Positions 42,498 through 47,153 of a stretch of 64,000 nt of DNA are shown in pieces. The stretch lies in the NCBI GenBank assembly GCA_003576905.1, contig QEVG01000001.1, positions 62,001 to 126,000 on the forward strand. Reading direction: 5' to 3'. Positions within the stretch are counted from its first letter, which is position 1; each line of letters opens with the position of its first letter. Under the pieces are notes generated by a model that was not told the DNA's origin, did no database searches, and saw only the letters and a list, made by a program, of their open reading frames with translations. The translations under genes were made by a program, and so were the position numbers. The stretch comes from Planctomycetota bacterium. Its GTDB lineage: Bacteria; Planctomycetota; Phycisphaerae; UBA1845; UTPLA1.

Positions 42498-44021
42498 TCA
42501 TTCCGCGTCCTGAAACCGTACGAACACCGGGTTACTGTAGAACCACAAGTCGTCCCACGGGTTTATCCCGGCCGGGTCCAGCTCTGGTCCGGACACGTCT
42601 CGATTCGTGCCACGCAGGCGAATGTACATCGGGCGTTCGACCCGATCGAAGCCATGCGAGAACTGGAGCCACGGCCCTTCCCGTTGCATTTCGACCGCCC
42701 GCACCTGTCGAATCACCCGGGTTGTCTCGTTCGACATCAGTGCCCGATCCGCTGAGATTCCACGAATTTCACCGGTGATGATATCGACGTGATCGAGTTT
42801 CGGCCGCCTGCCGCCGAAGTTCTCCCGCGCGGGCTCGCGCAAACGAACGCGAAGCTCCACGCGCGCCCCGCGCTTCTCCAGCAGGAGCGTTCCGCCCATA
42901 GGAGTCATGACATCTGCGCTGTTTACGCTCATCTCCAGCCGGTCCACGAGGTCTCCGTGAACGGTAAACATGCTCCCCCCGCGAAGAGCCGACAGCACCT
43001 CAAACGGGTCCGATCTTCGGGCGTACACCCAGGTCTTGGTGTACTCCCCCGGCCAGAAGTCCATGTTACGGACGTGCTCATGGCTCGACTGAGTCGTCGG
43101 TGTCACGTGCCCCCGGGTGGCGTAGGTCACCGGGCTGACCACCGTATGGTCGGAATGATGCCGATGGCTGTCGCTGTTAGCCGTGATGTACCACGGGCGG
43201 CCTTCGCCGAGCAGGCTGTCCCAGAGCCCGCCGACCTTTGCGACAAACCAGTCGTAGCCGCCCCACGTGCGATACGCATCCTTCGGGAAAGCCTCAAACG
43301 AACCACGGCCCGGCGCCTTGTCGTAGTGGCCACGCGGCGCGCCCATGAGCGACGCGGCCTGGTGCCCCGCCGTCGCCTCAAACCCCCGTGTCACATCCGG
43401 GCCTGCGTCCGCCCAGTTGCGCATCTCCATCGGGCTCGTTCGCCCTGTCCGTGCCGGGTGGTTTACAAAAAAGAGCGGCTTGTGGTCCCCCTTTATCGAT
43501 TGCAGGTATTTCACTCCGGCCACCGCTGCCGCCTCGGAGTTGGCCGGCGTGTTTGGCTTTGAAATGTTCTTATTGTCGTATCGCACCTCGAATCGGGCAA
43601 TCTGTTTCACTTCGTCCGGAGTGGGCGGAAGGATAACACTCCCGTGCTCGGCGTCGGGGACGTTCCATTCCAATCCCTGGAAGATGTGCATGCCGGCGTG
43701 AGCTTTTCGGGCCGCGAGCAATTCGGGGTACGCCTGTTCGAGGGTGACCTTGTCATGCCGAGGGCCGCCGTGGTCCGTGATCACGCACCAGGAAAGTCCG
43801 TGCCGCGCCGCCTGCCGTACCTGTTCGACGATATCGTACTGCCCGTCGGGACTGTACTTCGTGTGAATGTGATGATCCCCGGCGAGCCAGACGCCACCGG
43901 CAAACGGGTTCGTGGCGAAGGCAACGCGCGGCAGCCACGCGGGCGCGGTGCCGAGGCTGATGGTCACGCCCCTGAGCCGGCTCAGGAATACGCGCCGTGA
44001 GATTATCCGATCATCGTTCAT
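42498..44021 (-). CDS. CehA/McbA-family PHP-type metallohydrolase, exported
   Basis: 507 residues. ISRRVFLSRLRGV near the N-terminus is a twin-arginine signal, followed by a hydrophobic stretch, so export to the periplasm is likely. The PHP-type metal ligands are visible: GDHHIHTKYSPDG (about residue 48) and VITDHGGPRHD (about 80), then FVNHPAR and TANSDSHRHHSDH (about 285). CehA/McbA proteins hydrolyse carbamates and other esters, but most family members in planctomycetes have no known substrate. It is 141 bases downstream of the pseudopilin gene on the same strand and could be an outlying member of the riboswitch-controlled unit. Confidence 0.86.
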   Translation of the reverse strand: MNDDRIISRRVFLSRLRGVTISLGTAPAWLPRVAFATNPFAGGVWLAGDHHIHTKYSPDGQYDIVEQVRQAARHGLSWCVITDHGGPRHDKVTLEQAYPELLAARKAHAGMHIFQGLEWNVPDAEHGSVILPPTPDEVKQIARFEVRYDNKNISKPNTPANSEAAAVAGVKYLQSIKGDHKPLFFVNHPARTGRTSPMEMRNWADAGPDVTRGFEATAGHQAASLMGAPRGHYDKAPGRGSFEAFPKDAYRTWGGYDWFVAKVGGLWDSLLGEGRPWYITANSDSHRHHSDHTVVSPVTYATRGHVTPTTQSSHEHVRNMDFWPGEYTKTWVYARRSDPFEVLSALRGGSMFTVHGDLVDRLEMSVNSADVMTPMGGTLLLEKRGARVELRVRLREPARENFGGRRPKLDHVDIITGEIRGISADRALMSNETTRVIRQVRAVEMQREGPWLQFSHGFDRVERPMYIRLRGTNRDVSGPELDPAGINPWDDLWFYSNPVFVRFQDAE

Positions 44022-44162: not shown

Positions 44163-45092
44163 TCAACCGCGCAGTCCATAGATAACGTCGATATGAAGGG
44201 TCGCTCGGCCGCGCCGAACTTCGATCGTGCGGAGGGCGTCGTCCGAAAGGTTGCCCACGGGGCCATGGCCCATCCGTCCGAAAGGATGCGGCGTCCGCCG
44301 CGGCGGCTGCCCGGCGGCGTGGCCGTCCATGTAGAGCACTTGTGCTCGGCCATTGTGCCTGAAGTGTCCGAAGCCGCCGTTCACGCCGGCATTGCGCGAG
44401 AAGAGCGAGGGCTCCTGCCATTCAATGTACGCCGGCTCGTTAAAGGTCTGTCCAAGCGGCGTTGGTCCGGAATAGTCGAGCCGGTCGAAGTGAATGCCGT
44501 CGGCCAGGACGAAGACGTCCGAGGTGCGCCCGACAAATTCCTGAATTGCGCGCGGCGCGCCGCTCGATGACCCCTGTCCTCCACCTCCCAGGCCCGCCGT
44601 GTTGTAGCCATAACCGCCTGCCGCGGGCGAAAATTTCGCGAAGTACTTGCCCGACGTATATGGAAACCCGGGGCAAACAAAGTCTGCCGACGTGGAGGTG
44701 AGATACTTGCCAAGGAAACCGGCGGCCTTGTCGATCGGGCGATGGAGCGACATCGCGTTTGCGGCCGGCCCGCCGCGTTCGAAGCCGAACCACCAGCGCC
44801 GCCCCGCCTCCGGACTCGCCACGTCCTGAAAGTACGGCCAGAAACGCCCTTCGTTGTCATCAAGGTACATCTGGGTCGCGAGGCCGCCGGCCCTGAGGGC
44901 CGCGAGGCATACCGAAGCCCGTCCGGCCTCGCGCGCACGGGAAAGCGCGGGCACCAGGATGCCGACGAGGACCGCCGACACGCTGGTGACAAGGAGTATC
45001 TCAATGAGAGAGAACGCGCGCGCCCCTCTCCGCGCGCGTCCCTGGAAGCGGCGCCCCACCACACCGAATCGGCTGAATTCGGAGGGCCTCAT
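44163..45092 (-). CDS. Type II secretion-like pseudopilin with H-X9-DG motif
   Basis: 309 residues. The ATG at 45092 overlaps the stop of the upstream gene (ATGA). After a basic leader (RRGARA) the prepilin peptidase site and helix FSLIEILLVTSVSAVLVGILVPALS follow at about residues 27-50. The body has the fold of planctomycete DUF1559-like/GspG-like proteins, and HNGRAQVLYMDG is the H-X9-DG signature near residue 256-268. Such proteins are abundant in planctomycetes and are thought to be surface or periplasmic pseudopilins. The overlap with a cobalamin-riboswitch-controlled gene means that it should be regulated by B12, which is unusual for this family. Confidence 0.88.
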   Translation of the reverse strand: MRPSEFSRFGVVGRRFQGRARRGARAFSLIEILLVTSVSAVLVGILVPALSRAREAGRASVCLAALRAGGLATQMYLDDNEGRFWPYFQDVASPEAGRRWWFGFERGGPAANAMSLHRPIDKAAGFLGKYLTSTSADFVCPGFPYTSGKYFAKFSPAAGGYGYNTAGLGGGGQGSSSGAPRAIQEFVGRTSDVFVLADGIHFDRLDYSGPTPLGQTFNEPAYIEWQEPSLFSRNAGVNGGFGHFRHNGRAQVLYMDGHAAGQPPRRTPHPFGRMGHGPVGNLSDDALRTIEVRRGRATLHIDVIYGLRG

Positions 45093-46231
45093 CTCGATGT
45101 CCCCACGAGCGCCGCGACAAACCCGTCCACGTCGGCGAAGGTTAGTTCGTCGTCATCGTTAAAATCCGCGCGTGCGAGCGCGCAGGGCCCGGACAGATCA
45201 AAGAGGATCGCCTCGACAAAGGGCGCGACGTCAAGCCCGTCGAGCGCTCCATCTCGATTCAGATCGCCTGCCACGACTGCGGCCGTATGGAAGCTGATTT
45301 CCGAGAACTCCACTTCCGCGATGACGGAATCGCCGAAGGGATTGAACGTGTCCTGCCAAGCAGTAAGAGCCAGCGCGTCCACCGCGAAGGGGGCGCCGGA
45401 AACAAGAATCGTCTGGACTGTCGTGGGATCGCCGTCTGGTCCCCCGGAACCGCCTTCGCCGTCGGCATTGATCGAAACCGGCAGGCCGTCACGCGACAAA
45501 GTCAGCGTCGCAATCCGCGCCCCGCCGTCATAGCGCACGCGAGCCACATGCACCACATCCAGCGTGATCGACTCCTCACCGAGCTTCGTGTCAATCTCCG
45601 ACTCGGCGCCAAATGGAAACTCAATCTGCGAGAAATATCCCTGGCCCGTGTCGGAGTGGATCACCGTCGGACCAATCGTCGGTCCGCCGAATTGCGGACT
45701 CACGTTGGGGTAGTAATCAAAAGCTACGCAGTCGAAGGCGAAATCCGGGCCGGCGCCGCCCGCCCGATCCATACCTGTGGTCTGCAAGTTGATCAAACCC
45801 CAGCCGATCTGGGCAAACTGAAAGGGATCGGCGTAGAAGCCACCGGAACGAATGCGAAACGTGACGGTGAGTTCGAAATCATCACAGCGTCCCAGGAGGC
45901 GTGATCCCGAAGTATCCAGAAGGCGCACATACCAGGCTGTGGGCAGGAATGAGTCGTACTGAACGACGAGGCGCTGCTCAGATGATTCGTAGATGAATCG
46001 CGAAGGATCGTGGTCACCGGGTACGAAAAATCGCCCCGCGGCGACGGGATCATCCTCGAAAGACTCGGTCCAATCGATGGCCGGCAGATCAGCGCGAAGG
46101 GGCACGGCAGCGAGCGATAAAACGGCAAGCGCGAAGATGCGGGACCGCAACCCATGCGAGACCTGGGGGGACTTAACGTATTCCAGGAATGATGCGGTGG
46201 GGTGAGAAACCGATGCTGAAAACGGATTCAC
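45089..46231 (-). CDS. Secreted beta-sandwich protein with dockerin-like repeats, cobalamin-riboswitch controlled
   Basis: 380 residues from the GTG at 46231, chosen because AAAGGA lies eight bases upstream and the terminator hairpin ends before it; an upstream ATG at 46300 lies inside that hairpin. The N-terminal secretion helix is SRIFALAVLSLAAVPLRADL. The mature domain (about residues 48-320) is rich in beta-strands, with FELTVTFRIRSGGFYADPFQFAQIGWG, and looks like a lectin- or glucanase-type jelly roll, though no catalytic motif is seen. Two calcium-loop repeats end the protein: DLNRDGALDGLDVAPF and DFNDDDELTFADVDGF. No cobalamin-binding motif (such as DxHxxG) is present. The family is unknown to me. 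Confidence 0.8.
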   Translation of the reverse strand: MNPFSASVSHPTASFLEYVKSPQVSHGLRSRIFALAVLSLAAVPLRADLPAIDWTESFEDDPVAAGRFFVPGDHDPSRFIYESSEQRLVVQYDSFLPTAWYVRLLDTSGSRLLGRCDDFELTVTFRIRSGGFYADPFQFAQIGWGLINLQTTGMDRAGGAGPDFAFDCVAFDYYPNVSPQFGGPTIGPTVIHSDTGQGYFSQIEFPFGAESEIDTKLGEESITLDVVHVARVRYDGGARIATLTLSRDGLPVSINADGEGGSGGPDGDPTTVQTILVSGAPFAVDALALTAWQDTFNPFGDSVIAEVEFSEISFHTAAVVAGDLNRDGALDGLDVAPFVEAILFDLSGPCALARADFNDDDELTFADVDGFVAALVGTSR

Positions 46232-46268
46232 GGCGACGATCCTTTCCGCGGCAGTCTCTCGCTGCCGC

Positions 46269-46304
46269 AAAAAAACTCCGTGCCCGGCAAATCCGGACAC
46301 GGAG
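46269..46304 (-). terminator. Intrinsic terminator between cobalamin riboswitch and secreted-protein gene
   Basis: Transcribed on the minus strand, CUCCGUGUCCGG pairs with CCGGGCACGGAG around AUUUG. The 12-bp stem contains a single G-U pair. A run of seven U follows. It lies about 100 bases after the B12 box and 38 bases before the GTG. This is the expected expression platform of a transcriptional riboswitch. Confidence 0.85.
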
Positions 46305-46404
46305 GTGGAAAGGCTCGACGCCGCGCGACCCTCCGAAAATGGGGCCCCACGCGAAAAAAAGCCGCCGACTCACGCCCATATCCGGGGCGGACACGACAAC
46401 ACGG

Positions 46405-46565
46405 CGACGGGCAGGTCTTCTGGCTTTCGGATCATTCTACTTGCCGCGCCTTCTCCTCGGAACACGCGAGAATGGCATTTGCGGCGTTCGTCCCCGATTA
46501 CAGCGGCGGGACCGCGGTGGCTTCTCACCACCTTCCCTGAAACCTCTCTACGCGAGAGGCCCGGG
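46405..46565 (-). promoter_or_regulatory. Cobalamin (B12) riboswitch aptamer
   Basis: On the minus strand the conserved core reads AGGGAAGGTGGTGAGAAGCC, then CCGCTGTAATCGG, GACGAACGCCG, AAATGCCATT and finally GCCAGAAGACCTGCC, the B12 box (plus-strand positions about 46410-46425). Order, spacing and the near-invariant GCCAGAAGACCTGCC and CTGTAATCGG match the cobalamin riboswitch family. The P1 boundary is approximate. It reads towards the gene at 45089-46231, with a terminator in between. Confidence 0.93.
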
Positions 46566-46624
46566 CCGAGAAATATTTACTTGTCAAGGCGATCGGAGAT
46601 CAACTCCCCGTCTGAATGCGAAGG

Positions 46625-46753: not shown

Positions 46754-46792
46754 AATAAAAATGGGCCGCGTCGACTCCCCTCGACGCGACCC
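46754..46792 (-). terminator. Intrinsic terminator downstream of the respiration cluster
   Basis: On the minus strand GGGUCGCGUCGA pairs with UCGACGCGGCCC around a 6-base loop, with one G-U pair. AUUUUUAUU follows. It lies about 360 bases past the DUF420 stop and should separate the oxidase operon from the riboswitch unit. Confidence 0.75.
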
Positions 46793-47153
46793 GCACTGCT
46801 TCTTAAAGCAGCAACCCGCTGGGCGAAGCCCTTCGTGGAAACCGTCACCCCTCTCCCGAAGGTGTGGATCCTCGACGGGCCTCCCCCAGCAGGCTGCTAC
46901 AGCGGCTGTCGCCACCGCAACGATTCAGCTCATAACACGCTGCGTGCCAATCGTGGGCATTCGGTCTACACTGCGGAAGCCGCATTACTATAAGATAATC
47001 AATAGCATGCACTTACGCGTACCTGCCCCTCGAAGTTGAACCTGTGTCCCGATACGCAAAACCCAAATGGTGGGCAGAAGAACCCAAAATTATGGTCCCA
47101 CACCTGCGCAATCTCGACCCAGAAAATCGTTCATTGAGCAGGTGCGACGGCCC
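46793..47153. other. Intergenic stretch after the oxidase operon
   Basis: No gene or named RNA is recognised. The part near 46960-47110 is visibly more AT-rich than its surroundings. It would be the 3' untranslated part of the oxidase transcript if the terminator at 46754-46792 is the true end. Confidence 0.4.

Follow-up and report, generated by a model that had tools for sequence, protein, structure and literature searches.

A cobalamin riboswitch operon with an H-X9-DG pseudopilin as a putative B12-acquisition module of Phycisphaerae-like planctomycetes

What does a cobalamin riboswitch control when the genes behind it encode a secreted protein and a pseudopilin? The question is raised by a locus in the window, meaning the whole 64,000-nucleotide stretch of planctomycete DNA analysed here. 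The initial annotation placed a minus-strand aptamer with a B12 box and core at 46405-46565, saw none of the known B12 targets behind it, and put forward a surface system capturing cobalamin. We read this locus together with 61 genomes, namely the window's own genome (G000) and 60 relatives, with riboswitch loci taken from 40 genomes of the order. These MAGs are partly incomplete (G000 is 97% complete), so that single absences may be assembly gaps and patterns over tens of genomes are safer; ORF calls in the relatives are simple. The features of the locus are as follows.

46393-46578, minus strand: cobalamin riboswitch aptamer, full length (RF00174)
46276-46304, minus strand: intrinsic terminator, 12-bp stem and T7 tail (terminator scan; fold z -6.0)
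46240-46268, minus strand: small hairpin GCGGCAG-CGAGAGA-CTGCCGC, then the Shine-Dalgarno sequence GGAAAGGA (sequence, fold)
45089-46231, minus strand: gene 1, secreted lectin-fold and dockerin-like protein of 380 aa (ORF)
45293-46099, minus strand: ConA/legume-lectin/GH16-like beta-sandwich domain of gene 1 (AlphaFold2 model, Foldseek, VIA)
45125-45271, minus strand: dockerin-like pair of calcium loops of gene 1 (Pfam Dockerin_1, sub-threshold)
44163-45092, minus strand: gene 2, H-X9-DG pseudopilin (ORF; member of the riboswitch-linked orthologue group)
44322-44357, minus strand: H-X9-DG motif HNGRAQVLYMDG of gene 2 (alignment A1)

The aptamer is confirmed and slightly longer than first drawn. 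The covariance check that had been proposed is significant, as Rfam cmscan covers RF00174 fully (model 1-189) at 46393-46578 on the minus strand with 105.2 bits (E 2.7e-25), against a gathering score of 31.5 bits. On inspection of the sequence, the B12 box GCCAGAAGACCTGCC lies at 46424-46410 and CTGTAATCGG at 46503-46494. A covariance search of the 4.7 Mb genome returned this one copy. The terminator (46304-46276) sits between the aptamer and gene 1 and is predicted to be the expression platform of a transcriptional riboswitch. A similar CCTCCG/CGGAGG stem with a T run follows the riboswitch in most aligned relatives, as judged by eye, and the Shine-Dalgarno sequence GGAAAGGA stands 8 bases ahead of the GTG start of gene 1.

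Two further elements lie near the aptamer. The hairpin between the terminator and the start codon looks alike, by eye, across genera in most aligned relatives, and may either belong to the expression platform or control translation. Upstream of the riboswitch, positions 46763-46960 (minus strand) form a strongly structured RNA-like region (fold z -6.4), which closes with its own terminator (12-bp stem, T run) and matched no family in an Rfam search; it may represent a 6S-like RNA or some other small RNA. The genome G008 has a similar stretch upstream of its riboswitch, visible as similar antisense ORFs.

Gene 2 stands as it was annotated. It overlaps gene 1 by four bases (ATGA) and carries both pseudopilin motifs, the prepilin motif AFSLIE and the exact H-X9-DG motif. 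The general models fall just short, with a score of 18.3 to TIGR04294 (cut-off 19) and 17.4 to N_methyl (cut-off 21.2). The pseudopilin family profile, by comparison, gives gene 2 257 bits and the next pseudopilin of G000 140 bits. In alignment A1, the FRH and DGH flanking H-X9-DG are nearly invariant in the orthologue group, and two cysteines, C62 and C140, are invariant in the riboswitch-linked group. Directly downstream of the operon, at 42498-44021 on the minus strand, lies a gene for a PHP-domain (CehA/McbA-like) metallohydrolase that apparently carries a twin-arginine signal.

The pseudopilin proves to be the constant partner of the riboswitch. By profile, it follows the riboswitch in 38 of the 40 loci of the order. 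Profile A1, built from 36 riboswitch-locus pseudopilins and searched in the 61 whole genomes, gave 62 matches of 204-348 bits, with a clear gap to all others at 177 bits or less. Fifty-seven of the 62 (58 genomes) lie on the same strand, 0.1-7.1 kb downstream of an RF00174 site, and none of 30 next-best pseudopilins lies downstream of one; a single gene placed at random in each genome would land in the riboswitch-downstream zone in about 0.1% of cases. Among the genomes outside the A1 profile, 18 of 23 matches are riboswitch-linked, and three of the five unlinked ones are at contig ends. For this analysis we define the riboswitch-linked orthologue group by a profile score above 200 bits and an upstream B12 riboswitch; gene 2 belongs to it with its 257 bits and the aptamer 1.3 kb upstream. 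The linkage also holds where copies multiply: G026 has two riboswitches and two orthologues, and G021 (L080, contigs C244 and C260) has three B12 riboswitches at separate sites, every one of them paired with a pseudopilin orthologue.

The converse was examined in a separate public collection. A related pseudopilin profile, used by itself, retrieved 80 planctomycete loci, and all 23 of those run through cmscan have RF00174 upstream on the same strand. The 36-row pseudopilin alignment was too divergent as a contig search query, and A3 was used in its place. Outside the order too, riboswitches in other families of the class and of the phylum have a member of the pseudopilin family behind them. 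The association of riboswitch and pseudopilin is thus deeply conserved and near-universal, and the pseudopilin is the constant component of this operon family.

Gene 1 is far less widespread. Its GTG start is followed by a signal peptide at about residues 30-47, and an AlphaFold2 model from seven sequences (pLDDT 70, pTM 0.78, moderate confidence) resembles ConA/legume-lectin-type folds (Foldseek E 3.8e-8; VIA Z 14.0, 3.3 A over 202 residues). Almost all of the 50 VIA matches listed are legume lectins, with one GH16, and the fold is therefore not informative on B12; the model leaves the ligand undefined in a fold mostly known from glycan binders. A Pfam search gave nothing beyond the dockerin tail, which falls below the cut-off (Dockerin_1, PF00404, E 0.0037, 17.9 bits, cut-off 22.9); a sister protein at the same operon position has Dockerin_1 at E 2.9e-10. 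With the signal peptide, the lectin-type sandwich model and the two calcium-loop repeats, the description as a secreted beta-sandwich protein with calcium loops holds. Full-length homologues occur in six of the 60 related genomes. Whether they recur beside cobalamin riboswitches had been asked, and five of the six stand directly after the genome's lone riboswitch; in G051, homologue and riboswitch lie at two contig ends, which fits a contig break between them.

The sister operons supply what the window's operon lacks. Between riboswitch and pseudopilin, 30 of the 40 loci encode a secreted protein with a common domain, A5, which in most relatives is a PEP-CTERM or dockerin protein, and 52 of the 57 A5 matches across the 61 genomes are at a riboswitch. 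A5 matched no Pfam family in the proteins tested. Searched against the PDB with HMMER, its profile finds two chains, both from Bacteroides thetaiotaomicron: BtuG1 (8blw, E 1.4e-6) and BtuH2 (7biz, E 9e-4). The A5 model (pLDDT 92, pTM 0.88) has the same two as its best structural matches (VIA Z 12.7 over 148 residues with 25% identity, and Z 11.8 with 29%), followed by CBM32 domains at Z 9.0. In BtuH2 the match falls on the C-terminal domain and in BtuG1 on its fused BtuH domain, both reported B12 binders (PMC8941943, PMC10404256). Profile and model together show A5 to be a BtuH-type domain, homologous to the B12-binding domain of BtuH2 and BtuG1, and it is predicted to bind B12.

Other B12 proteins accompany it. 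DUF4465 (PF14717), reported as the B12-binding family BtuJ (PMC13398666), is found in the operons of G031 (E 9e-55), G117 (2e-56) and G187 (2e-51), a cobalamin adenosyltransferase (PduO, E 3e-59) comes first in the operons of G011 and G013, and a PQQ-type beta-propeller occurs in 16 of the 40 loci. The most telling gene orders for B12 partners are those of G117 (riboswitch, DUF4465, BtuH type, pseudopilin, BtuF, BtuD, BtuC) and G153 (riboswitch, BtuF, BtuC, BtuD, pseudopilin). No secreted capture protein was recognised beside the G153 pseudopilin, and in the f37 genomes the riboswitch is followed at once by the pseudopilin gene, again with no capture protein recognised adjoining it. The absence of known B12 targets noted at the outset is therefore right for the window's operon and does not extend to the homologous operons, with their DUF4465, BtuH-type, adenosyltransferase and BtuFCD genes.

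Some side observations belong to these partners. A small PEP-CTERM family, A4, recurs immediately after B12 riboswitches in planctomycetes of several families (members include L080:12797-13324, L092:2314-2988, L097:2221-3006, L085:1027-1827 and L224:4918-5598); it showed no Pfam relatives, a sequence search of the PDB gave nothing, and it is a candidate for a further B12-binding family. The BtuH-type/dockerin protein of G004 (L064:2201-3331) matches the Leptospira LIC_13355 lipoprotein family (NCBIfam E 5e-14, below cut-off), so that this family may also be related to BtuH. An ORF at the very start of contig L100 (11-40) opens with GSEMCIRDS, a sequence resembling a contig-end artefact of assembly or adapters.

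The physiology of these genomes can be read alongside. CbiC is needed in both corrin pathways. It was found in none of the 61 genomes by a search that finds it in seven control genomes, and B12-binding enzyme domains are present in all 61, six of them in G000; taken together, these results make it very likely that the window's genome and its relatives depend on imported cobamide. No TonB-dependent receptor (PF00593) was found in 38 of the 61 genomes, that is, in the 97% complete G000 and 37 of the 60 relatives. G000 has a BtuFCD-like ABC set on another contig (L216), without a riboswitch, and five secretin matches; every genome checked has several secretins. Judged by gene content, the gap in B12 uptake of G000 would be the outer-membrane step, and the window's operon is its sole recognised B12-regulated locus.

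How the window's clade came to its own version is suggested by the pseudopilin tree. Among 37 pseudopilins, those with a lectin-fold partner form a single branch (support 100/99), though they come from two taxonomic families, and the family label needs 13 changes on the tree. Pseudopilin subtype follows capture-protein type and not taxonomic family, and the pseudopilins of PQQ-propeller operons likewise group together when loci and tree are compared by eye. Since subtype tracks partner type, the tree suggests that each operon is passed on as a cassette whose pseudopilin and partner act jointly. By profile search, the A5 domain is absent genome-wide from the window's clade (G000, G001, G002, G009, G010). 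G051 has lectin-fold and BtuH-type proteins side by side in one operon, so the lectin-fold protein of the window's clade was probably left after loss of the BtuH-type protein. As for gene 1 itself being a BtuH-type protein, profile comparison detects no relation (hhalign of A2 against A5, probability 0.2%), and no protein of the window matched DUF4465 above the cut-off.

We consider it probable that the window's operon is the local form of a B12-acquisition operon widespread in Phycisphaerae-like planctomycetes. The best reading is that of a capture or uptake module induced by B12 starvation, and this module is likely a TonB-independent outer step. Low intracellular cobalamin would leave the aptamer empty and the terminator unformed, and the operon would then be transcribed, giving a capture protein for secretion and a pseudopilin dedicated to the module. 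For most relatives, capture would fall to a BtuH-type domain bearing a PEP-CTERM or dockerin tail, in many cases accompanied by a beta-propeller or DUF4465 protein; the window's clade would have the lectin-fold/dockerin protein as its lone capture protein, with a putative role in binding B12 or in standing in for the BtuH-type protein. The pseudopilin probably joins a type II secretion or type IV pilus-like fibre through the genome's secretins. This fibre may present or export the capture protein, or it may itself take B12 through the outer membrane and hand it to the BtuFCD-like ABC importer, whose genes lie elsewhere.

Several results count against this best explanation. Gene 1 resembles neither the BtuH-type domain nor DUF4465 and has a glycan-binder-like fold, riboswitch and pseudopilin are unlinked in G022 and G055, and 23 of the 61 genomes have a TonB receptor, yet nearly all genomes retain the operon. 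The original idea of a surface system capturing cobalamin gains from the near-universal linkage and from the BtuH-type, DUF4465, PduO and BtuFCD genes of the sister operons, and so stands at the level of the operon family; for the products of genes 1 and 2 themselves, B12 binding is putative, and gene 1 has no detectable BtuH relation. An alternative is a surface response to B12 starvation in which nothing binds B12, the lectin-fold protein and pseudopilin anchoring the cell on particles or on the glycans of algae or bacteria that produce B12, with B12 gained indirectly. The lectin-type fold and dockerin-like tail of gene 1, the clade-wide lack of BtuH-type proteins and the binding of dextran, a polysaccharide, by planctomycete pilus-like fibres (PMC5394234) speak for it. 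We hold it unlikely, as the same pseudopilin and operon are common to relatives with BtuH-type or DUF4465 B12 binders and BtuFCD, and the lectin-fold protein of G051 shares its operon with a BtuH-type protein. Much more improbable still is a target further downstream, the PHP/CehA-McbA metallohydrolase (42498-44021) or an epimerase, with genes 1 and 2 as passengers: the PHP gene is on the same strand, 141 bases past the operon, but what follows the pseudopilin varies (MutS2-like in G001, G002 and G010; an opposite-strand gene in G009) while the pseudopilin stays. The PHP gene is disfavoured as the target, its position not being conserved in relatives.

Within the preferred reading of a B12 capture and uptake module, the task of the pseudopilin divides into two. 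It may belong to type II secretion and be reserved for bringing the B12-binding proteins to the surface, and B12 itself would then pass the outer membrane along a different route not recognised here; this is possible, if somewhat doubtful. Pseudopilin subtype changes together with the kind of protein secreted, which a secretion adaptor should do, and secretins are plentiful. The G153 pseudopilin, placed after BtuFCD, and the f37 pseudopilin, first after the riboswitch, argue the other way: with no capture protein recognised beside them, a direct role in uptake looks more likely there than a pure secretion role. We infer, with reserve, a transport role for the pseudopilin in preference to a secretion role. 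The operon fits speculation that links planctomycete fibres, which pseudopilins are not known to build, and the associated crateriform structures to uptake (PMC5394234). The fullest version, offered tentatively, is a TonB-independent machine for B12 import across the outer membrane, in which a pseudopilus made under B12 starvation bears BtuH-type, DUF4465 or lectin-fold capture proteins at its tip or on its surface and passes cobalamin through a secretin-type pore to BtuFCD.

The nearest known systems are the Bacteroides capture loci, BtuB with the surface lipoproteins BtuG, BtuH and BtuJ/DUF4465 (PMC10404256, PMC8941943, PMC13398666), which are likewise B12-riboswitch operons of diverse secreted B12-binding proteins. 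Both have BtuH-type and DUF4465 proteins, a beta-propeller partner (BtuG there, the PQQ-type protein here, alike by fold class alone) and sometimes BtuFCD. However, no BtuB was found in the planctomycete operons, their proteins have PEP-CTERM or dockerin tails instead of lipoprotein anchors, their constant component is the H-X9-DG pseudopilin, and the window's own candidate capture protein has a lectin-type fold. With the BtuB-TonB-BtuFCD route of E. coli, G000 shares the BtuFCD-like inner-membrane importer (L216); unlike it, no TonB-dependent receptor was found in G000, and the lone riboswitch is on the surface operon, not the ABC genes. The gene 2 group shares prepilin cleavage and H-X9-DG motifs with type II secretion/type IV pilus pseudopilins of H-X9-DG C-terminus (TIGR04294; planctomycete DUF1559-type paralogues), but it is set apart by its scores (204-348 bits against 177 or less), its linkage to B12 riboswitches and its invariant C62 and C140. 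A search of openly accessible papers found none that connects cobalamin riboswitches to pseudopilins or PEP-CTERM proteins of planctomycetes.

At stake is how B12-dependent Gram-negatives without TonB receptors move a 1.3 kDa cofactor across the outer membrane. The operon is a concrete candidate for this step in a large planctomycete group with no corrin synthesis marker, with B12 enzyme domains and often with no TonB receptor. The homologies carry the capture families BtuH and DUF4465 well beyond Bacteroides, and one of the many planctomycete H-X9-DG pseudopilins gains a hint of its function. If the import machine is true, it would be the first pilus-type system dedicated to a vitamin.
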